64,000 nt of DNA from Oceanobacter kriegii DSM 6294. Lineage in GTDB: Bacteria; Pseudomonadota; Gammaproteobacteria; Pseudomonadales; Oceanobacteraceae. Position numbers and translations under genes: made by a program. Below are positions 1 to 11,390 of this stretch, one piece after another. Below the pieces are notes generated by a model. The model had not been told where the DNA came from, made no database searches, and saw only the letters and a list, made by a program, of their open reading frames with translations. Numbering within the stretch: position 1 is the first letter of the stretch; each line of letters begins with the position of its first letter. The stretch lies in the NCBI RefSeq assembly GCF_000422845.1, contig NZ_AUGV01000004.1, forward strand, positions 1 through 64,000. The letters run 5' to 3'.

Positions 1-1
1 C

Positions 2-213
2 CGGTTTATCCCCGTGGGTACGGGGAACGCACAGTGATCAGCGCATCGGAATTCATGTAGCCCGGTTTATCCCCGTGGGTACGGGGAACGCTCGATCTGG
101 TTCCCGCGCCTCAGCGGGAATCGCGGTTTATCCCCGTGGGTACGGGGAACGCCTACCAGCTCCATGGCATTTGCAGACGTATCGCGGTTTATCCCCGTGG
201 GTACGGGGAACGC
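2..213 (-). CRISPR. Type I-E CRISPR array, leader-proximal end (4 repeats, 3 spacers)
   Basis: Four identical 29-nt repeats lie at 2-30, 63-91, 124-152 and 185-213, separated by three 32-nt spacers (31-62, 92-123, 153-184), so the period is 61 nt. Read on the minus strand, the repeat starts GCGTTCCCCGT and ends GGGGATAAACCG. It has a 6-bp stem (CCCCGT/ACGGGG), a 4-nt ACCC loop and the ATAAACCG 5' handle typical of type I-E crRNAs. The AT-rich leader lies beyond 213, so transcription runs toward position 1 and the spacer at 153-184 is the newest. The array continues out of the window on the left, so its full length is unknown. None of the repeats seen is degenerate, which suggests recent activity. 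Confidence 0.98.
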
Positions 214-2223: not shown

Positions 2224-2979
2224 TCAAACCCGCCTCACCAACCACATCCCGCAGCCAAAACCTTTGGATTTTCCGACACCTTTGTACAGTGCCTGTAAAA
2301 ATCGCTCTGGATCAGTCACAGTCAACAAGCCCTGATAATCGACCGAGGAATAACGAATGGGCCGCCCTTGTTCGTTTTTACGCTCACCTTCCAGAGCCTT
2401 TTTGCGGGCTAATCGATGCTGGGTATAACTTTCAATCTCCGGTTGACTATCCAGTTGAACTCCCCAATCAGCCAATCTCTCAGGGCTGGAAATCCAGGCC
2501 TGAGCAGCGTGCTCAGCGGCCAGTTTTTTGGCTTCCTTGAGGCGCTCTGGTGAAAGCCCTTCAGGATCGACCTTGCGCTTGGCATCCATAAGTACGTCAT
2601 GCCGCTTGCGAATGCCCTGCTCATCCCGGCTACTGGTGACCGGATTAACCCGGAGTTTGAACGCCAACCGATCGCCAGCCGAGAGTCTGGGTTCATAGTG
2701 TTTGGTCTGGCAGTTGAAGGGCGTGCCCTTTGCTTCCGGCGGGTGTTCAGACAGCACATAAAATTCAGGGAAGCCCTGAGAATTAGTTTCTTCCCGGTAC
2801 AGAAACGGGCGTTGAAGCTGTTCTTTTGCTTTCGACGGTTGTTGGGTCCAGCTCTTGGTATAACCCGGAAACAATTGCCACAGCAGCTGGTGGATAATGT
2901 AGGAGTCCCGATTTTTGAAATCTGCCAACAGCGTCGACAACTCCAGCGCATTGGCCACGGTCACTTTGGAAAAATACAT
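2224..2979 (-). CDS. cas6e: crRNA-processing endoribonuclease Cas6e (CasE/Cse3)
   Basis: The 251-residue Cas6e starts at MYFSKVTVANALELSTLLADFK. It carries the family signature near residues 24-36 (DSYIIHQLLWQLFPG), with the histidine corresponding to the catalytic His of Cas6e. The C-terminal glycine-rich loop (LYKGVGKSKGFGCGMWLVRRV) is the conserved G-rich RNA-binding end. It cuts pre-crRNA at the base of the repeat hairpin, leaving the ATAAACCG 5' handle, and stays on the crRNA 3' end in Cascade. The ATG overlaps the cas5e stop (TAATG). It should also process the crRNA-like RNA at 7684-7762 if that is transcribed. Confidence 0.95.
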   Translation of the reverse strand: MYFSKVTVANALELSTLLADFKNRDSYIIHQLLWQLFPGYTKSWTQQPSKAKEQLQRPFLYREETNSQGFPEFYVLSEHPPEAKGTPFNCQTKHYEPRLSAGDRLAFKLRVNPVTSSRDEQGIRKRHDVLMDAKRKVDPEGLSPERLKEAKKLAAEHAAQAWISSPERLADWGVQLDSQPEIESYTQHRLARKKALEGERKNEQGRPIRYSSVDYQGLLTVTDPERFLQALYKGVGKSKGFGCGMWLVRRV

Positions 2980-3767
2980 TAGCGCTCCTCCATAAGCGTG
3001 AGCTGATGCTGCTGGCGTTGGCCAAACTGCCAACGGGTGCGGCTGATCGGGTCATCCCAGGGGTGATAAGTCAGGGTGGCGTCATGCTCGGTGCCGTCCA
3101 GTCCATTCAGTTCACCCTGCCAGTAATAGGTACTTTGGCCTTTCAGGGCGAGGCAATACTTGTCAGCTGACCAGGTTGATTTCCCCTTCCCGCTTCTCTC
3201 CTCTTCCACCTCCAAAGTGGTTGCGGTGACATCCGGGAATTTAGTGTCCAACGCCTGCTTCAGCGAGTCGGTTGTTACCAATGTCGGCATCAGCGGCAAG
3301 GCAGGCGGACAGGATTTACGCCCCAGATACAGAGGGAACACCGGGCGCTTGAAGTATTCCTGTATTTGCTTCAGGGTCAGATTCTGAGCACCGTCTTTTA
3401 AATACACCGCCACGATCCAGATACCATCCTGACGGTAGTGACGACTGGATAACACGGTGTTCAGCTTATCGACCGACAGTTCACTTTTGCGGGTGAAGTG
3501 ACGGTGCTTTTTATCCGTCGAGGGAGCCTGAACCGTTTGGTAATCTCGCATCAGGGTGCCCGCGCTGAGCTGCTTTACGGCGATTTGAAGCTCGTCAAAC
3601 AACTGCTGCTGACCTGCATCATCTTCGCGTTCGATACCCATCGCCGCGCCAATTAATCCTAAAATAGCCGCTCGCCCCGGAGCCATGCCGGTGGGGCGCT
3701 CACCGCCTACAGCAGCTTGCCCCCAACTGGCCATCGGCCCATAGAGCCGGAAAACCAGATAGTCCAT
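2979..3767 (-). CDS. cas5e: Cascade subunit Cas5e (CasD)
   Basis: The 262-residue protein starts MDYLVFRLYGPMASWGQAAVGGERPTG, the Cas5e N-terminus, including the A-S-W-G and E-R-P-T-G segments that help hold the crRNA 5' handle. Cas5e caps the 5' end of the Cascade backbone and contacts Cse1. The chosen ATG is 1 nt after the cas7e stop, and its own stop overlaps the cas6e ATG, giving tight coupling. A longer reading to 3797 would overlap cas7e and has no support. Confidence 0.95.
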   Translation of the reverse strand: MDYLVFRLYGPMASWGQAAVGGERPTGMAPGRAAILGLIGAAMGIEREDDAGQQQLFDELQIAVKQLSAGTLMRDYQTVQAPSTDKKHRHFTRKSELSVDKLNTVLSSRHYRQDGIWIVAVYLKDGAQNLTLKQIQEYFKRPVFPLYLGRKSCPPALPLMPTLVTTDSLKQALDTKFPDVTATTLEVEEERSGKGKSTWSADKYCLALKGQSTYYWQGELNGLDGTEHDATLTYHPWDDPISRTRWQFGQRQQHQLTLMEER

Positions 3768-4851: not shown

Positions 4852-5601
4852 TTATTTGGATGGTTTGGCACTGGCAGCGGCGTAGTATTCGGAAGCCCAT
4901 TTCAGGGCAATGCGTTTTTCAACTTCGCGTGGAATGCGGTCATGGTATTCGGCAAACCAGCAGAGAATATCGTCGGCAAGACGGGCAATGGGCGCATTAC
5001 GCTTCAGACGTTTCACCAGTCGGCGCATCAGCATCAGAAATTCTTCGTCCGTGTCTGCGGTTTGCAGCTGCTGGAACCTCAACTCACTGAGATGAGATCG
5101 GCTGCTGTTCTCAACCGGCGTACCCGCCATGCTGGCAATCGAGCGCATGGCTTTATCTTCTTTTTTGTCACTGCCGAAAGGCGGCGTAATGTCGTTGCGA
5201 ACATCGGCAATCACCCCGGCGATACAGGCCCAGGCCAACGGCGCAAAGTGTTTTTTCACGTAGGCCGACGACTCTGGCTTCGTCTTATCTGTCTCCTGGT
5301 CCGCTTCCGGCGCATTCTCATCTACTTCCGGATTGATGGCGAACCAAAGCGCACGATAGCCATCGGTCATCATCAAGGTTGGCAAGGTGTCGGCCCGACA
5401 CAGGCGTGCTCGTTGACCTGAAGGTGCCGGAGCCATGTTCTTATCGCGTAGCTCAGTGATACTGGCGTTCATAGCGAAATGCCACTTTCTGAGCTGGTCA
5501 GACTCATGTTTGGTGAGGTGTTGGCAGTACGGAACCCTGTCATTGGGGTTTGGCTTTTTATTTACCTTCTGATTGGTTTTCACCTCTGTATCTTGCGTCA
5601 T
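4852..5601 (-). CDS. cse2: Cascade small subunit Cse2 (CasB)
   Basis: The 249-residue, helical, basic product has the Cse2 pattern L-R-K-W (DQLRKWHFAMNASITELRDKN) near 36-56 and a C-terminal R-L-V-K-R-L-K segment. Two copies line the belly of Cascade and stabilise the R-loop. At 249 residues it is longer than the E. coli protein (about 160), with extra charged segments near residues 1-30 and 95-115. The ATG overlaps the cse1 stop (ATGA). Confidence 0.9.
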   Translation of the reverse strand: MTQDTEVKTNQKVNKKPNPNDRVPYCQHLTKHESDQLRKWHFAMNASITELRDKNMAPAPSGQRARLCRADTLPTLMMTDGYRALWFAINPEVDENAPEADQETDKTKPESSAYVKKHFAPLAWACIAGVIADVRNDITPPFGSDKKEDKAMRSIASMAGTPVENSSRSHLSELRFQQLQTADTDEEFLMLMRRLVKRLKRNAPIARLADDILCWFAEYHDRIPREVEKRIALKWASEYYAAASAKPSK

Positions 5602-7241
5602 GCAGACACCCCCTGTGTTTGCTCGGATACAATTTTGTAGTCGGTTTTGAATTGTTGAATGGGTTTTTTACTACGATATAACCAGCCCCGCAGGATATTG
5701 CGGGCCTCTATTTTTTCGCTCATTTCTCTGGGTTCGGGTTCACTGGAAAGCACCAGTTCATCGAAGATTTCCAGCGAAATGGCCTGCATGGCCAACAACC
5801 AGCGCTTGGCCATCTCGGGCGTCAAAATCAATTCATCCGGTTTGGCGCTGGCTTGATCCGCCAGAGAACTTACAGCCTGAAAAAACACCGGCTCGGTACG
5901 CTGCCAGAACATCAAATCGATAAAACTGAAGTCCCCTTTCGCATCGTCAGAGCGTTTGAACCAGGCTCTTTTCACTTGCGTTCGCACCTGCTTGCCCATG
6001 TCGTGCGCCAGTGTTTGCAGCGCAGACACCTCACTAAAGAAGTCCTCTTCCAGTCCAGCTGGCATAGCCGCAAAGGGCATTTCGGTGCTGTAAAAACCAC
6101 GCGGTTTCATGTTGTCCATATCGTAGGCAAACGACCAAAGCCGCAGCTGGGCTTTCAGGTCATCGTCCAGATACTCTGAGAGCTGATGCATATGGCTCAC
6201 CACCAGCGCCGAGTTATGCGCCTGACTGTCTGGTCGAGCAAAACGCAGGATTTCCCACTGCTTGTAGGTAATACCGCCTGGCTGGCCCTTGATAGAGAGG
6301 TATTCATCGTCCGGCTTTTTCGGGTCGCCTCGATAGGGCGTAAAAGGATGTGTCCGCCAGTCGCCGCTGTAGTTATTGCCGTAATTCTGCGTGCGATAGC
6401 TACTGACCAGCTGTGCGGCTGCTTCGCCGGAAATATCACAACTGCCTGAGCGGTCTTCGATATTCAAACGAATACGTCGTGGCATAGCCCAATAGCGATG
6501 TAATGGATGGACATCTGTGGGCAGAATCACCGCCTTCTTTTCGCTGGTAACAGTCGGGGCCAACCAGGGGAAAACCGAGCCATCGCTAAAATCCGGATTT
6601 GTCCAATCCGCCTTGCTGTTGTCAGCCAGCCATTCCTTGCTCATCACGTTCAGCCAAAGCTTTTGCCATAAACAGGCATCCGGCTGGTTGGATAGCACCA
6701 GGGTCGATAAGGGGCCACCGCCTCTCAAGCCAGTTCGGTGGCCCTGCCCGCCAGATGGCGCGTTGATCTGCAAGGTAAACAGCGCCAGTGCCGCCATCGG
6801 CAACGACATTTGTTCCACAAAGCCGCGCTTGATGAAGAAATCGGTATTCAACTTGATGCCGTTATCACCCGGCGCTTCGATCAACAACGAAGTCGCCGCA
6901 CTGGGCTTAGCAGACTCCAGAGGATCAAAATCCTGCATAAACAGTGGGCTTTCCGGCTTTTCACCGATCAAATTAAAAGCATGCTCAATCTGGCTGAAGG
7001 CTTTTGAAAATTCTTCGGGAGAAGGCGGTTCTTCGAATTTGTCGAGCCAATCGTCCGAGTCTTCTGGAGCCAATACAGTTTGCAGCACACCGACAATGAG
7101 CTGATAGGCAGCGCCCTGAAAATCAGCGCGAGGTAGATTCAGATTGGTAATTTTGGGGTCGCCGATATCAGCGAGTGAAATGGTTTTGGCTTCACCGTTT
7201 GAACAGATAACGGGGAGCCAAGTCGTTGCAAGAATATTCAT
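5598..7241 (-). CDS. cse1: Cascade large subunit Cse1 (CasA/Cas8e)
   Basis: The 547-residue large subunit starts MNILATTWLPVICSNGEAKTISLADI, typical for Cse1. It includes the LPRADFQGAAYQLIVGVLQTVLAP block and the family segment SGGQGHRTGLRGGGPLSTLV near residues 160-180. Cse1 reads the PAM (AAG in E. coli) and recruits Cas3. I chose the ATG at 7241 because AAGGATGGA lies just before it. A reading from 7307 has no such site. The gene heads the Cascade block and follows a gap of about 560 nt that contains the crRNA-like RNA and a candidate minus-strand promoter, so its transcription may be subject to that RNA. Confidence 0.95.
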   Translation of the reverse strand: MNILATTWLPVICSNGEAKTISLADIGDPKITNLNLPRADFQGAAYQLIVGVLQTVLAPEDSDDWLDKFEEPPSPEEFSKAFSQIEHAFNLIGEKPESPLFMQDFDPLESAKPSAATSLLIEAPGDNGIKLNTDFFIKRGFVEQMSLPMAALALFTLQINAPSGGQGHRTGLRGGGPLSTLVLSNQPDACLWQKLWLNVMSKEWLADNSKADWTNPDFSDGSVFPWLAPTVTSEKKAVILPTDVHPLHRYWAMPRRIRLNIEDRSGSCDISGEAAAQLVSSYRTQNYGNNYSGDWRTHPFTPYRGDPKKPDDEYLSIKGQPGGITYKQWEILRFARPDSQAHNSALVVSHMHQLSEYLDDDLKAQLRLWSFAYDMDNMKPRGFYSTEMPFAAMPAGLEEDFFSEVSALQTLAHDMGKQVRTQVKRAWFKRSDDAKGDFSFIDLMFWQRTEPVFFQAVSSLADQASAKPDELILTPEMAKRWLLAMQAISLEIFDELVLSSEPEPREMSEKIEARNILRGWLYRSKKPIQQFKTDYKIVSEQTQGVSA

Positions 7242-7310
7242 AGAATTCCATCCTTTGATTACATCCATTGCCAACAAGAAAGGAAAGGCATCCTTGCCTT
7301 GGTGCAATTC

Positions 7311-7472
7311 CTACGAGAGCCACTCAGCCAGTTTGGCCAACAAAAAACTGATCACTGAAACCATCACTGCTCGAGGAAGCAAGGGTTTCTTTTTACTAAC
7401 GGTTTCGTCCACTCTTTTGAGTGGACACTTGGGATGTTGGTGTATCTCAATAGTGATGCTAAGCAATGGCAT
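7311..7472 (-). CDS. Small ORF with C-terminal membrane helix (candidate toxin of the CRISPR guard)
   Basis: A 53-residue ORF (MPLLSITIEIHQHPKCPLKRVDE... ending ISFLLAKLAEWLS) starts at ATG 7472, preceded by GGAGA at a good distance (GGAGATTTAATG). The middle is lysine-rich and the last 20 residues form a hydrophobic helix. It lies downstream of the TATAAA promoter covered by the pseudo-spacer target and ends 69 nt before cse1. Upstream on the same transcript, ATG 7555 opens a 10-residue ORF (MLLVPAIGAF). The reading continuous with that one is a longer hydrophobic frame ending at 7523. One added base in the GGGG run would join the two frames, so a decayed membrane gene is an alternative. I recognise no family. 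Confidence 0.4.
   Translation of the reverse strand: MPLLSITIEIHQHPKCPLKRVDETVSKKKPLLPRAVMVSVISFLLAKLAEWLS
7407..7426. repeat. 20-bp inverted repeat inside the small ORF
   Basis: GTCCACTCTTTTGAGTGGAC has perfect 8-bp arms around TTTT. It falls inside the 53-residue ORF, so it would form a stable hairpin in the minus-strand mRNA. Its outer six bases are the half-sites of the palindrome at 8591-8606 in the opposite order. A shared binding protein or a translation-controlling hairpin are both possible. Confidence 0.5.
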
Positions 7473-7585
7473 TAAATCTCCGAAGGTTGCCAATAGAAAT
7501 GCCCAGCCGCCGACACTACAGCTCAAAATGCCCCAATAGCTGGTACGAGCAACATCAAAACACAGAACACCACACCAATCAATGT

Positions 7586-7615
7586 TTTATAACCAGATGC
7601 TTTTGTCTTATTAAA
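7586..7615 (-). promoter_or_regulatory. Minus-strand promoter overlapping the pseudo-spacer target
   Basis: On the minus strand TATAAA (7586-7591) is a good -10 box, with a weak -35 (TTTAAT, 7610-7615) 18 nt upstream and a TG just before the -10. Transcription would start near 7579 and run toward the short ORFs and cse1. The 21-nt region 7586-7606 is the best match to the pseudo-spacer at 7713-7733. It is preceded by AAG at 7609-7607, the canonical type I-E PAM. Matches are at spacer positions 1-5, 7-9, 13-16 and 19-21, and mismatches at 6, 10-12, 17 and 18. Cascade bound here would block the -10 element. Confidence 0.65.
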
Positions 7616-7632
7616 ATTTAAAAGAGTACATT
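7603..7632 (+). promoter_or_regulatory. Candidate promoter for the crRNA-like RNA
   Basis: On the plus strand TTGTCT (7603-7608) and TACATT (7627-7632) are 18 nt apart, in an AT-rich stretch before the first degenerate repeat. A start near 7640 would give a leader of about 45 nt before the repeat hairpin. The hexamers are imperfect, so this is a suggestion only. Its -35 overlaps the PAM side of the target site on the other strand. Confidence 0.35.
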
Positions 7633-7683
7633 TATCTTGCTAACTAGCACTTTCTCTAACACCAGAAAAACATTAGTCTTAGC

Positions 7684-7762
7684 GGCTCCTCCAGCCTGCT
7701 GGAGATAAACCGACAAACGCACTCGGTTGAAAAATGTTCCCCGCACCCTCGGGGATTTTGCT
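7684..7762 (+). ncRNA. crRNA-like RNA: degenerate repeat, 21-nt pseudo-spacer, degenerate repeat (CreA-like)
   Basis: Repeat copy 1 (7684-7712) matches the array repeat at 17 of 29 positions. It keeps the layout exactly: 5 nt, stem CTCCAG, loop CCTG, stem CTGGAG, then ATAAACCG. The stem sequence differs from the array repeat but still pairs perfectly. Copy 2 (7734-7762) matches at 20 of 29, with stem CCCCG/CGGGG, loop region CACCCT and a lost 3' handle (ATTTTGCT). Between them lies a 21-nt pseudo-spacer (7713-7733) starting ACAAACGCA. Cas6e cleavage would give an RNA of about 50 nt with a proper 5' handle. The partial match to 7586-7606 in the same gap indicates self-directed repression, as in CreTA systems. 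Expression is not shown by sequence alone. Confidence 0.8.
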
Positions 7763-7801
7763 ACATGGAAGTAGCTCGTCTCTACCTCCAATTCAGCCCC
7801 C

Positions 7802-8293
7802 TCACAAAGTAACCGCCTGCGCATCCTGCTCCAGCTTACTGCTCGATGCGACTGCCGCTTCTGCAATTTCCCCCATTACAGCTTCAACCTTGCCTTGCTC
7901 CACCAGCCAACAGGCGACTTCCGGCCAATAATACAGAGGCGTGCCACTTTGCAGGCCGTAGCGCGGCGATGGGAAATCCCCCGGCCCGCGAATGCCTTTG
8001 GTGTAGTTGTTAAGAGTCTGCTTGTTAATGTCTGCCAGTTTGGCGGCAGCTGTCAGAGTAACGAACCCGGCTTGCTCGATGGAAACCACTCGATAACCAG
8101 CAGACTGCACCGCTTCGATGGCAGAGCTGATGGCCTTTGTGGCTGAATCAGCGGCGCGGTCAAATTCCAGATAGGGAGTATTGCCACAAAAGCAAACGAG
8201 TGCATCGTCGCAGCCAGCTTCGCACAGCTTGTCTTCAAAATCCGGCGTGTCGGGCGATGCGCCGCTGAGCACCAGGGTAAATTGATAATTCAT
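7802..8293 (-). CDS. Winged-helix DNA-binding protein, putative antitoxin/regulator
   Basis: The 163-residue product (MNYQFTLVLSGASPDTPDFEDKLCEAGCDDALVCFCGNTPYLEFDR...) has an N-terminal alpha/beta part (1-80). A MerR/AlpA-like helix-turn-helix follows (about 88-140: TLTAAAKLADINKQTLNNY, then a wing with SPRYG...YYWPEVACWL). GGGAGAGG precedes the ATG by 3 nt, and the stop of the HicA-like gene is 10 nt upstream, so the two form an operon. I recall this gene pair recurring in proteobacterial accessory DNA annotated as hypothetical plus DNA-binding protein. The antitoxin role is inferred from the pairing. It separates cas3 from the crRNA-like element. Confidence 0.65.
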   Translation of the reverse strand: MNYQFTLVLSGASPDTPDFEDKLCEAGCDDALVCFCGNTPYLEFDRAADSATKAISSAIEAVQSAGYRVVSIEQAGFVTLTAAAKLADINKQTLNNYTKGIRGPGDFPSPRYGLQSGTPLYYWPEVACWLVEQGKVEAVMGEIAEAAVASSSKLEQDAQAVTL

Positions 8294-8303
8294 TTTCCTC
8301 TCC

Positions 8304-8558
8304 CTACTCGGAGTCTTTTGGACGCAACTCCATCGGTCGACACTGCCGCACTTTGCGGAGAATCTGCCGAGCATGATTCTCCGGGTTCTTTGGGGTACTC
8401 CAGATACTCATCATGTGGCCAGAATGCTCAGGAATACCGCATCGTAATCGGCAAAAGCAATGAGCAGAACTTCCAGCTTCGACCATATGCCAACCGTTGG
8501 CCAGCGCATGTTCGATCGCTTCCCGAATGACCTTATTGGGGTGCTTCTTGGGTGACAT
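8304..8558 (-). CDS. HicA-like small protein, putative toxin
   Basis: This 84-residue basic protein starts MSPKKHPNKVIREAIEHALANGW. It has the core G-W-x-x-x-x-A-G-S-S-A-H (30-41), a Cys/His cluster and a conserved SIWSTPKNPENHARQI motif. The N-terminal helix followed by a G-W...H strand resembles the double-stranded-RNA-binding fold of HicA mRNA interferases, but the family is distinct from classic HicA. GAAAGAGG upstream is a usable ribosome-binding site. It directly follows cas3 (63-nt gap with a palindrome) and is coupled to a helix-turn-helix gene. That arrangement suggests a toxin-antitoxin cassette inside the cas operon. Toxin activity is not demonstrated. Confidence 0.55.
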   Translation of the reverse strand: MSPKKHPNKVIREAIEHALANGWHMVEAGSSAHCFCRLRCGIPEHSGHMMSIWSTPKNPENHARQILRKVRQCRPMELRPKDSE

Positions 8559-8621: not shown

Positions 8622-11390
8622 TTATTCAGCCGACCCGGTATCGGTCACTTCATAAGCACCGAGTTTCTCGCTGTATTGCATTCGGCTTTCTTCTTCTGCC
8701 AACCACAAGGTTTGGTATTTGGCCCCTCTATAGCGTTTAACAAAATCCAACACTTCCGCTGAGCCCGACTGACCGTCTGATGCTTCCAGCCGAGCGGTTA
8801 GCTTGTCGTGTTTATTTTTGGCGATTTTGAGGCTGCTGAGCTGGATGGCGAATTTTGGGTCATCACACCAGGGCTCCAGCCTGCTCGCTTTGCGCCTGAC
8901 CAGAACCAGATTGCAATATTCCATTTCCTGATAGCGGGTGCTCAGTTCAGATTCTTCGCCTGACCAATCACCATCTTCGGTCATCAAGCTGTACCCCTTG
9001 TCGACCGAGATAACACGGCTTTCACCGCTGCTGCTTTTTTCTCTTACGGCCTGGTTATAGGCAAACTCTGCCTCCAGGAATGCCTCCGGCGTTGCAGGGG
9101 CCAGATCACCGTAGACCGACTCGATTAATTTGCGGGCATCGCCCGGCATGCTATAGCCGCTGCCTTCACGCAGAACTTTCATGGCTTTCCATAATTGCGC
9201 CGGACTTTTGTATACGGCAGCGGTGCCACGAAAACTTTCAGCCAGCCAGTTCACTGCAGGAGCTTCCGACCACTCTGGTGCATTAACCAGCAACAAGGGC
9301 GATTGAGTATTCGGGCGCTCACGAGCGTGGCGATGCAAACGCCCTGCACGCTGAATCAGGTCGTCGATTGGGCATAAATCCGAGACCATCAGGTCCGCGT
9401 CTGCATCGAGAGATTCCTGAAAAACCTGGGTACAGATAATGATTTTTCCGGCTCTTATGGCTGGTGTGCTCTCTTTTCCTATCCAGTCGAGCACCTTGCC
9501 TTCTATGGCTTTTCGATCCTGAAGGGTGAAGCGACTATGAAACAGCAGCACTGAATCAGTTGCGCTTGATCCCAGTTTTTTCAGAATGTCGTCATAGGCT
9601 TGCTGGGCATCACCAACCGTATTCCTCACCCAAGCCACTGCATCACCGGCTTCTGCCGCATCAACCACCTGCTCAATGATCTTCTGGTAATCATGAACAA
9701 ATTCCACGACTACCGAGCGAGAAACCTCAGCCCGGCTTTCTAGCGGCTGTTCGACAATAGATTCTCCCACCTCCAGTCGCGTCGCCAATGGAAAATCCTT
9801 TTGACTGTGCTTTTGCGTGAGCCAATCCTGTTTGGGCGGAAGTTCATTTGCCGACTCCCACTTATCTGCCAGCCCGGCCCAGACACGACACAAACGCTCA
9901 CGAGCAGCAAAGCTCAAGGTCGCGGTTAACAGCACCGCATGGCCACCCTGATGCTTATGCAGTTTCAACAAGGTAGCGAGCAGCTGGAGCTGATACTCAT
10001 CGGCGGAGTGCGCTTCATCAAACAGAAAAACCTTGTGATGTAATCCCAACACACGAAGACTTTGATGCTTTTTCGGCAATACGCCCAACAAGACTTGATC
10101 GACCGTACCGACACCAACCGGAGCCAATAGCGCCTTTTTGCGGGAATCCGCCAGCCAGGCATTGCAGTACAAACTGGCAGTGTCATCAGAAGCAGCGTAG
10201 GGCTTGTCCTGCTGAGCGCTGGTGCCTACGGCTTCACGAAACCGCTCGTCCATTTCACGCGCGGAATGCGCCAACACCAGCGAGGGCTTTTTCTCACCCG
10301 GCTTGAACATCTTCTGATAATGATCAGCCAAGCGATGAAACATGGCATTAGACGTCGCCATGGTCGGCAGCCCGAAATAAAAACCTCTGGCTTGCCCCTC
10401 CGCCATCAAACGATGAACCAGAGTTAAAGCAGCTTCGGTTTTACCCGAGCCAGTGATGTCTTCGAGAATAAAAAGCTGAGGAGAATCCGAAATCGGCACA
10501 GTTTCAGCCCAGTACTGCAAAGGCGTCGGCTCGAAATTAAAAACATCTTTGAAGCCAGAAAACGGTGCTGCCTCAAAATCCGCCAGCAAATCAGTGGCAT
10601 CAAGCGCTTGTTGCGCCTTGGGTAACGCGTGCTGGTGCCAGTAATCGCGCATGGACATTTCTGGTATAGGGTACGTAAAATACTCACGATCCGAACCCAG
10701 CCAATCTGAAATCACCGCCCAGCCTGCCAAACTCCAACTGGCCAGCTTAAAACGATCTTGCCAATCATCCTCTAACATCTGCTGAATCGGCCATTCAACT
10801 TCAAGCAACTCATACAGCTGGCCAGCAAATTCGGCGGCGTCATGAGCGTTTTCTGGCTTGAAGTAGTGCTTCATCGAATTAGCGGCTTGGCTGACGGGCC
10901 GCCCATGATGCCCAAGCACCCCATCAAATAACTGCTGAAGTTTGGCGAATAGTTTTCGATCCGATTGAAAGGGACGATTCCAACCAAACTCATCTATCTG
11001 GTCAGACTTGAACAGAGCCTTAACCAGATAAAACCCCAAACAATCGTGACGAAAATTCTGTGCGTCATAGGATTTCCGTGGCTCCAGCAGTCCACCGTTC
11101 GCCTCCTTAAAAACAGGCAAATGCTGAAATGCCGCCGAAAACTTGCCAAGATCATGCAAGGCCAACAGAAAGGTCAAAAGATTTAGTAGTTGAGGCTTTG
11201 GGATTTGCAGCAATTCAGAGAGATCGGACAGAAGTTCCTGCTTACCAGAGAGAAGCAGTTGCCGCCCTACCGCAGCAACGTCCAGACAGTGATAAACCAG
11301 TCGATGGAATTTCAAGCCAGACGAGTCCGAATGACACTTCCCAAGGTATCGAAAATACATCTGACCTGATTGGTTATTACTGCCGTCCAT
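8622..11390 (-). CDS. cas3: CRISPR-associated helicase-nuclease Cas3 (type I-E)
   Basis: The 922-residue protein joins an N-terminal HD nuclease (His34, His79-Asp80 in LLALHDLGKFSAAFQ, and the HHGRP motif at 161-165) to a superfamily 2 helicase. The helicase has a Walker A (TGSGKT, about 313-318), a DEAH box (458-461) and C-terminal motifs including QRAGRLHRH. Cas3 is recruited by Cse1 to degrade the displaced strand after target recognition. The start has a near-perfect ribosome-binding site (AAGGAGG, 5 nt before the ATG). The length is typical. All catalytic residues are intact, so interference should be functional. Confidence 0.97.
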   Translation of the reverse strand: MDGSNNQSGQMYFRYLGKCHSDSSGLKFHRLVYHCLDVAAVGRQLLLSGKQELLSDLSELLQIPKPQLLNLLTFLLALHDLGKFSAAFQHLPVFKEANGGLLEPRKSYDAQNFRHDCLGFYLVKALFKSDQIDEFGWNRPFQSDRKLFAKLQQLFDGVLGHHGRPVSQAANSMKHYFKPENAHDAAEFAGQLYELLEVEWPIQQMLEDDWQDRFKLASWSLAGWAVISDWLGSDREYFTYPIPEMSMRDYWHQHALPKAQQALDATDLLADFEAAPFSGFKDVFNFEPTPLQYWAETVPISDSPQLFILEDITGSGKTEAALTLVHRLMAEGQARGFYFGLPTMATSNAMFHRLADHYQKMFKPGEKKPSLVLAHSAREMDERFREAVGTSAQQDKPYAASDDTASLYCNAWLADSRKKALLAPVGVGTVDQVLLGVLPKKHQSLRVLGLHHKVFLFDEAHSADEYQLQLLATLLKLHKHQGGHAVLLTATLSFAARERLCRVWAGLADKWESANELPPKQDWLTQKHSQKDFPLATRLEVGESIVEQPLESRAEVSRSVVVEFVHDYQKIIEQVVDAAEAGDAVAWVRNTVGDAQQAYDDILKKLGSSATDSVLLFHSRFTLQDRKAIEGKVLDWIGKESTPAIRAGKIIICTQVFQESLDADADLMVSDLCPIDDLIQRAGRLHRHARERPNTQSPLLLVNAPEWSEAPAVNWLAESFRGTAAVYKSPAQLWKAMKVLREGSGYSMPGDARKLIESVYGDLAPATPEAFLEAEFAYNQAVREKSSSGESRVISVDKGYSLMTEDGDWSGEESELSTRYQEMEYCNLVLVRRKASRLEPWCDDPKFAIQLSSLKIAKNKHDKLTARLEASDGQSGSAEVLDFVKRYRGAKYQTLWLAEEESRMQYSEKLGAYEVTDTGSAE

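Follow-up and report, generated by a model that had tools for sequence, protein, structure and literature searches.

Mini-arrays derived from clustered regularly interspaced short palindromic repeats (CRISPR), with guides that partly match promoters of cas8 or of cargo genes, were reportedly described by Shmakov in 2023 (NAR, gkad495), and CreR is said to go back to Liu in 2023 (Cell Host Microbe). Here we analyse an element of this kind in a window of 64,000 nucleotides (nt) of Oceanobacter kriegii DSM 6294 (contig NZ_AUGV01000004.1, positions 1 to 64,000): in a type I-E locus, the gap between cas3 and cse1 (casA, cas8e; the first Cascade gene) holds two degenerate repeats around a guide, which together form a mini-array (7684-7762) antisense to the cas genes. 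The closest described systems are summarised in the following as far as excerpts of the cited papers go. The type I-E locus of Citrobacter rodentium has, between cas3 and casA, a 96-bp open reading frame (ORF) that stops growth only if it is translated; it is repressed by Cascade, a CreA-like element lies upstream on the opposite strand and the target is at the promoter (PMC12055562). In the CreTA of Acinetobacter, psiR1 and psiR2 of creA stand around a 20-nt guide that pairs at 17/20 positions, leaving 6, 11 and 18 unpaired; a Shine-Dalgarno-led mini-ORF lies downstream of the target and divergent from creA, its hairpin and start codon being required, and the cas3-csy1 gap is open in three named strains, with continuous cas genes in most (PMC10097628). 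In haloarchaeal CreTA, positions 1-5 and 7-11 pair in one case (PMC8501985), and removal of the creTA gap lowers cas transcription, which means that the gap promoter serves the cas genes too (PMC9458426). Type I-B spacers of 24 bp repress without interference (PMC10989794). Reviews define CreR as a CRISPR RNA (crRNA)-like RNA that steers Cascade to the promoter driving its own cas operon (PMC12737573, PMC13131331, PMC12948488), an autorepression that one of them states for types I-B, I-E and V-A (PMC13131331); in CrePA, a protein toxin stands under a CreA-guided effector, CreP typically carrying a KilA-N domain (PMC12737573).

We hold the element in the window, with high confidence, to be a real, functional-looking Cascade guide. 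The first degenerate repeat, psiR1 (7684-7712, plus strand), is identical to the array repeat at 17/29 positions and retains its 5-6-4-6-8 layout, with six of six stem pairs intact on changed bases (CTCCAG/CTGGAG), an exact ATAAACCG handle and a predicted fold of -9.0 kcal/mol. An identity of 17/29 alone is unremarkable, 12 other non-array sites in the window scoring 17 or 18; it is stem and handle together that set psiR1 apart as unusual. The 21-nt guide follows at 7713-7733 (plus strand). The second repeat, psiR2 (7734-7762, plus strand), matches the array repeat at 20/29 positions, the top non-array match within 64 kb, and retains its hairpin with 5/6 stem pairs (CCCCGC/TCGGGG). Since its handle has changed into a T-run, the hairpin (7738-7755) plus TTTT reads as a probable terminator, and it scores as one. 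The layout and coordinates proposed in an earlier note on this DNA, two copies derived from the array repeat around a 21-nt pseudo-spacer and opposite to cas, were borne out, and the handle, layout and re-paired stem of the first copy were all reproduced; its statement that the second copy had lost only the handle overlooks the missing stem pair. The mini-array has an element score of 27, a value reached in 0/1000 shuffles of a 1062-nt stretch (maximum 23). An ordinary CRISPR array was considered and rejected, the two repeats being far from near-identical to the array repeat. An Rfam scan of 7200-7830 gave nothing, and a nucleotide search with 7242-7800 gave no match in plasmids and one 31-nt match in phages.

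On the minus strand, 15/21 positions of the guide agree with 7586-7606, mismatches falling at 6, 10, 11, 12, 17 and 18, and an AAG protospacer-adjacent motif (PAM) adjoins at 7607-7609 (minus strand), exactly as the earlier note had described it. Cascade reads a guide in 5+1 steps and leaves positions 6, 12 and 18 unread; counting only the 18 read positions, 15/18 match. The seed (positions 1-5 and 7-11) had been said to match throughout, which is too strong, as 8/10 positions match and 10 and 11 differ. Chance was assessed with dinucleotide shuffles and the criterion of 15/18 read positions beside AAG, which was reached in 0/5000 shuffles of the 442-nt gap, in 1/5000 of the 1062-nt stretch and in 0/5000 shuffled guides, giving an overall P of about 0.0002 or less. 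A possible second, weaker target (7615-7635, minus strand; PAM AAG at 7636-7638) matches at 13/21 positions, its seed of 8/10 being a tie with the first site; this site was found in passing and is new. The next-best site in the 700 nt before cse1 reaches 11/21. The first target and its PAM lie over a predicted promoter toward cse1, TTAATA-17-TATAAA (7586-7614, minus strand), the top-scoring cas-strand promoter in these 700 nt in a custom scan, in agreement with the earlier placement of the target over the -10 box TATAAA. The second site lies just upstream of the -35 box, which the two sites flank.

Related loci (numbered L001 and so on) were collected from 39 cse1 relatives in named genomes and from 22/293 genomes of the order, 5/44 of the family and 25/369 of the class, the last three counts each including the window's own genome. 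cas3 was extended to its stop codon before gaps were sized, and gaps under 100 bp were called closed, those of 100 bp or more open. The element was found in 27/29 open gaps at a score of 22 or more and in 25/29 at 23 or more, duplicates included (L070 and L071, which hold the L001 element; L031, near L008; L099, same gene as L090), and in 0/54 closed gaps, mostly of Xenorhabdus and Photorhabdus with about 150 nt scanned each. In the relatives the element lies on the strand opposite to cas; for L060 the top script row came from a palindrome read on the cas strand and the actual element lies opposite, and the top row of L077 is likewise not the true element. The element of L001, a locus of the same genus, is also that carried by two genomes of the window's genus, and between the window and L001 both guide and target are altered with their mutual fit retained.

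The pairing was compared over 22 loci. Left out were the duplicates L031, L070, L071 and L099; L054, whose register was missed (its true target is 10/10), and L065 (array, no target found); L049 and L089 (open gap, no array); L039, L058, L063, L081, L092 and L093 (cas3 unplaced by script); and L069 and L073 (cse1 unplaced), of which L069 has an array and a 9/10 target. About 20 of the 22 are independent, since one guide is common to L082 and L090, and a single genome contributed both L098 and L101. In a first ranking, which required AAG and skipped position 6, every guide was set against the upstream region of its own locus. The own-target seed was 10/10 in 15 loci, 9 in five (L077 at its corrected register) and 8 in two; among 462 swapped guide-region pairs, 6 reached a seed of 8 and 4 reached 10, and these four fit two pairs of related loci. 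Because this ranking used AAG and skipped position 6, it was repeated without the PAM. By the seed only, the top site has AAG in 22/22 loci (the window being tied between its two sites), and by positions 1-18, ranked without the PAM and without a pairing rule, AAG stands beside the top site in 21/22. From position 1 to position 18, the guide matched its target in 22, 21, 21, 22, 20, 6, 22, 20, 17, 21, 22, 6, 20, 18, 14, 12, 11 and 6 of the 22 loci: positions 6, 12 and 18 thus match in 6/22 each, near the chance expectation of 5.5, and positions 1-5 in 20-22. This drop is very likely an evolutionary sign of Cascade as the reader, and the comparative data make guidance of Cascade very likely at the present locus as well; the earlier proposal of a crRNA-like element with a partly matching target and an AAG PAM fits this signature. 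The psiR1 stem is paired in 124/132 cells (shuffle mean 91.6, maximum 107), a level that is inflated by the finder, which demanded at least 4/6 pairs, and that takes L077 at a wrong register; in L001, L008 and L018, which were located by psiR2 alone, psiR1 has six pairs made of different bases. As a separate observation, the guides of the 22 loci fall into two length classes, one of 19-22 nt (13 loci) and one of 32-33 nt (9 loci), a difference of about 12 nt that looks as if two six-nt Cascade steps had been dropped.

Target and cse1 are 345 bp apart in the window, and the interval holds an ORF of 53 amino acids (aa) (7311-7472, minus strand) with a Shine-Dalgarno sequence GGAG at 7478-7481 and a hydrophobic C-terminal stretch. 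ORFs of 50 aa or more that have a Shine-Dalgarno sequence and a hydrophobic stretch of Kyte-Doolittle 1.6 or more arise in 1.6% of shuffles. Inside the ORF lies a 9-bp hairpin with an AAAA loop (7406-7427, minus strand; z -3.0 for 7400-7481). We regard the ORF as a candidate toxin, acting as peptide or RNA, and as nothing firmer. It gave no hit in Pfam or PADLOC; CrePA with a KilA-N toxin was considered as a model and set aside.

Relatives show both modes, no cargo, as expected for CreR, and a gene in between. In L001 the gene between target and cse1 is a GNAT ORF. Among the solved structures nearest to it are KacT (5zgn) and 5fvj, which we take to be TacT; its NCBIfam hits stay below the cut-off. 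An antitoxin of the TacA type (Pfam TacA1) sits across the mini-array from it. Within 8973-9930 of L001, an element also present in L070 and L071, the mini-array splits this antitoxin/TacT-like pair and the guide fits the stretch right before the toxin gene. L008 and L031 have in common a small ORF of 72 aa, or of 93 aa from an earlier start in the case of L031, for which no family was hit. Six relatives carry, directly upstream of cse1, conserved peptides of 36-52 aa with one hydrophobic stretch, here called SPS peptides: those of L054, L058, L060 and L064 have 36-40 aa and a common SPS..AL.AL core, and two further ones, of 37 and 52 aa, come from L117 and L118. An array and a 10/10 target accompany them in L060, L064, L117, L118 and L054, and by eye a remnant only in L058. 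A search with the L064 peptide found 3/286 genomes, its own and two more, each time just upstream of cse1. SPS searches gave 5/144 in the family of genome G015, three before cse1 (one already known) and two weak ones without an adjoining cse1; 1/15 in the family of genome G126, G126 itself; and 3/339 in a class sample, short hits only (E 0.0004-0.005). The strong hits in the 286-genome, G015-family and G126-family searches all lie just before cse1. No relative of the family was found in viral contigs, and one member searched in plasmids and phages gave none. The SPS peptides are candidate Cascade-repressed toxins. In the open gap before cse1 of L089, frames were seen by eye that, by our assumption, resemble a BrnT/BrnA toxin-antitoxin pair.

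Of the possible functions we favour, at about even confidence, a CreTA-type guard that also throttles Cascade, rather than pure CreR; the guard and CreR roles can coexist on one promoter. From the layout, we infer a course of transcription, processing, repression and release as follows. The mini-array would be transcribed from the plus strand and end at the hairpin and T-run of psiR2, and Cas6e (Cse3) would cut at psiR1, giving a crRNA-like RNA with the 21-nt guide. Cascade loaded with it would bind 7586-7609, and perhaps 7615-7638 too, covering the -10 box and the promoter spacer, and would thereby block transcription from the cas-strand promoter without cleavage by Cas3, since a guide this short matches its target only in part. 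Repression without cleavage, as proposed before, is upheld as the likely action. The covered promoter would drive the 53-aa ORF, or an RNA with Shine-Dalgarno sequence, start codon and hairpin as in CreT, which is probably toxic; the transcript, lacking a clear strong terminator, would run on into cse1, and once Cascade is lost or inhibited, toxin and Cascade would be derepressed jointly. The guard claimed in the earlier note has a precedent in the type I-E CreTA proven in the same gap of Citrobacter rodentium (PMC12055562, as far as excerpted); at the present locus the controlled toxin, and with it the guard, is putative, and the 53-aa ORF has no credible relatives. More speculatively, and doubtful as a general rule, wherever the cas3-cse1 gap of a type I-E locus is open, the Cascade operon might carry a Cascade-repressed toxin as its first gene, in an exchangeable slot, so that one guide RNA would run an addiction module and Cascade feedback. 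The cargo of that slot would then be the SPS peptides in six relatives, in the sister lineage the TacT-like acetyltransferase and, in the window, the 53-aa ORF behind tandem sites.

A number of findings weigh against the guard. In 12/22 loci (L077 again at a wrong register) there is no ORF of 20 aa or more, with ATG or GTG start, between target and cse1, and in some loci the target is as near as 26 bp to cse1. These figures argue for a CreR in which the guide only lets Cascade throttle its own operon; the covered promoter would then be that of cas, and the 53-aa ORF would be an untranslated leader or a frame that arose by chance. We take this to be a serious possibility that falls short of even confidence. 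Target promoter and cse1 do lie on one strand, and autorepression is stated for type I-E in the excerpted review (PMC13131331); against CreR alone speak the 345 bp between target and cse1, filled here by a Shine-Dalgarno-led ORF and a strong hairpin, and the TacT-like gene that occupies the slot within the same genus. The ORF itself is a modest candidate: its hydrophobic stretch reaches a moderate Kyte-Doolittle value of 1.84, and in 286 genomes it has no credible relative, seven hits besides itself having E values of 0.03-0.08. The ORF is separated from cse1 by a hairpin (7285-7300) that resembles a terminator and has a weak tail. As a hairpin with the same loop precedes cse1 in L018, which is free of cargo (by eye), it was not taken as a full stop of transcription, and the same likeness suits CreR. 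Promoters are a further weak point. A stricter scan of 7200-7830 lists none, the target included, and a promoter of the mini-array's own is not recognisable; over the 22 loci, the top promoter of the custom scan overlaps the target in 8, starts within 12 bp in 10 and lies elsewhere in 4 (L001, L018, L062, L088), counts that have no null and that again take L077 at its wrong register.

The remaining objections concern the pairing. With a seed of 8/10 the window is, jointly with L087, the weakest of the 22 loci, 20 of which reach 9-10, and a seed of at least 8/10 beside AAG also occurs in 2/90 and 10/462 swapped guide-gap pairs, four of the 10 being read as pairs of related loci. L065 carries an array for which no target was found, and when 21 positions are compared without the PAM, L064, L082 and L098 have other sites equal to or better than the AAG site. 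Such a weak seed would suit a decaying relic, a once functional element whose guide-target pair is eroding with the loss of positions 10 and 11; since the locus retains all six psiR1 pairs, the AAG PAM and an exact handle, and 15/18 read positions match, we think this improbable. The imperfect local seed could also mean that the guide acts elsewhere in the genome and that the local match is secondary. A genome-wide search with AAG and guide positions 1-5 and 7-12, allowing at most one mismatch, gave one site (contig C18), and the reversed pattern used as a control gave 2, hence no better target under these strict criteria; the test is weak, as sites no better matched than the local target would escape it; together with the local seeds of 9-10 in 20/22 loci, this makes action elsewhere very improbable. 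Chance resemblance without function has nothing in its favour except the weak seed score of the window and is contradicted by the shuffles, the occurrence in relatives, the own-target fit and the pairing signature, so that we consider it barely conceivable.

The type I-E locus occupies the minus strand of the window, with the CRISPR array at one end, in the order cas3 (8622-11390), two genes matching PDC-M06, the gap, cse1 (5598-7241), cse2, further ORFs, cas1, cas2 and the array (1-213, minus strand, 4 repeats within the window). By position, these further ORFs are the putative remaining Cascade genes. The gene pair inside the locus (8304-8558, 84 aa, and 7802-8293, 163 aa; minus strand) corresponds to PADLOC PDC-M06A and PDC-M06B. 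It had been labelled toxin-antitoxin genes beside the gap, a label that we dropped in view of the match to this phage-defence candidate; the pair does not lie downstream of the target promoter. Neither gene has a Pfam or NCBIfam family above its cut-off or a convincing counterpart among solved structures. Elsewhere, a RelE/ParE-type toxin with its antidote (TIGR02683/TIGR02684) lies at 1569-2166, between the ORF 2224-3033 and cas1, and a second array with variant type I-E repeats is found in the same genome (G000 contig C24, 15070-15401). The motif AAGGATG occurs in the loop of the 7285-7300 hairpin, again at the Shine-Dalgarno sequence of cse1 just before 7241, and also in the cse1 leader of L018; motifs of this type resemble CsrA/RsmA sites. 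Rsm control of CRISPR-Cas has been published for Serratia (PMC8450108, as excerpted).

With this locus, the regulators guided by Cascade gain a well-supported type I-E member, and among the loci sampled an open cas3-cse1 gap almost always holds such a guide. Should the ORFs in the slot prove toxic, a single promoter would combine the sensing of anti-CRISPRs with CRISPR addiction and feedback on Cascade. The conserved family of small hydrophobic SPS peptides, found in passing in the same slot of six relatives and new, is a concrete toxin candidate.

Two of the features by which CreTA is recognised are found here: degenerate repeats beside a guide within a cas locus, and a guide that partly matches a nearby promoter beside a PAM in 5+1 steps, the promoter being placed by custom scan only. 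As far as the excerpted reports allow a comparison, the CreTA of Citrobacter rodentium (PMC12055562) is the strongest precedent. Like there, a type I-E system harbours the element between cas3 and casA, where a repeat- and guide-like element stands upstream of and opposite to a small ORF, and the target is at a predicted promoter with a type I-E PAM. Unlike there, where the PAM is ATG and the target on the UP element, the PAM here is AAG and the target lies over the -10 box; the 96-bp toxin of Citrobacter rodentium is proven, whereas the present locus has a candidate 53-aa ORF and two psiR copies, and the likeness is one of anatomy. With the Acinetobacter CreTA (PMC10097628) the locus shares a gap that is open in some strains and closed in others, two psiR copies around a short guide and a Shine-Dalgarno-led ORF divergent from the element and downstream of the target, but that system is of type I-F and its toxin acts as an RNA with a 33-bp mini-ORF. 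As in haloarchaeal CreTA (PMC8501985), psiR1 has diverged more than psiR2; the haloarchaeal systems differ in being of type I-B, archaeal and equipped with RNA toxins with rare codons. Shine-Dalgarno sequence, start codon and hairpin in the region of the 53-aa ORF resemble the CreT described in excerpts of both reports (PMC8501985, PMC10097628). A target promoter on the same strand as cse1 would suit CreR, yet here an ORF lies in between. The kind of element is already described, as CreTA and as CreR, and we do not claim a first description of the locus, which is a new example of that kind.
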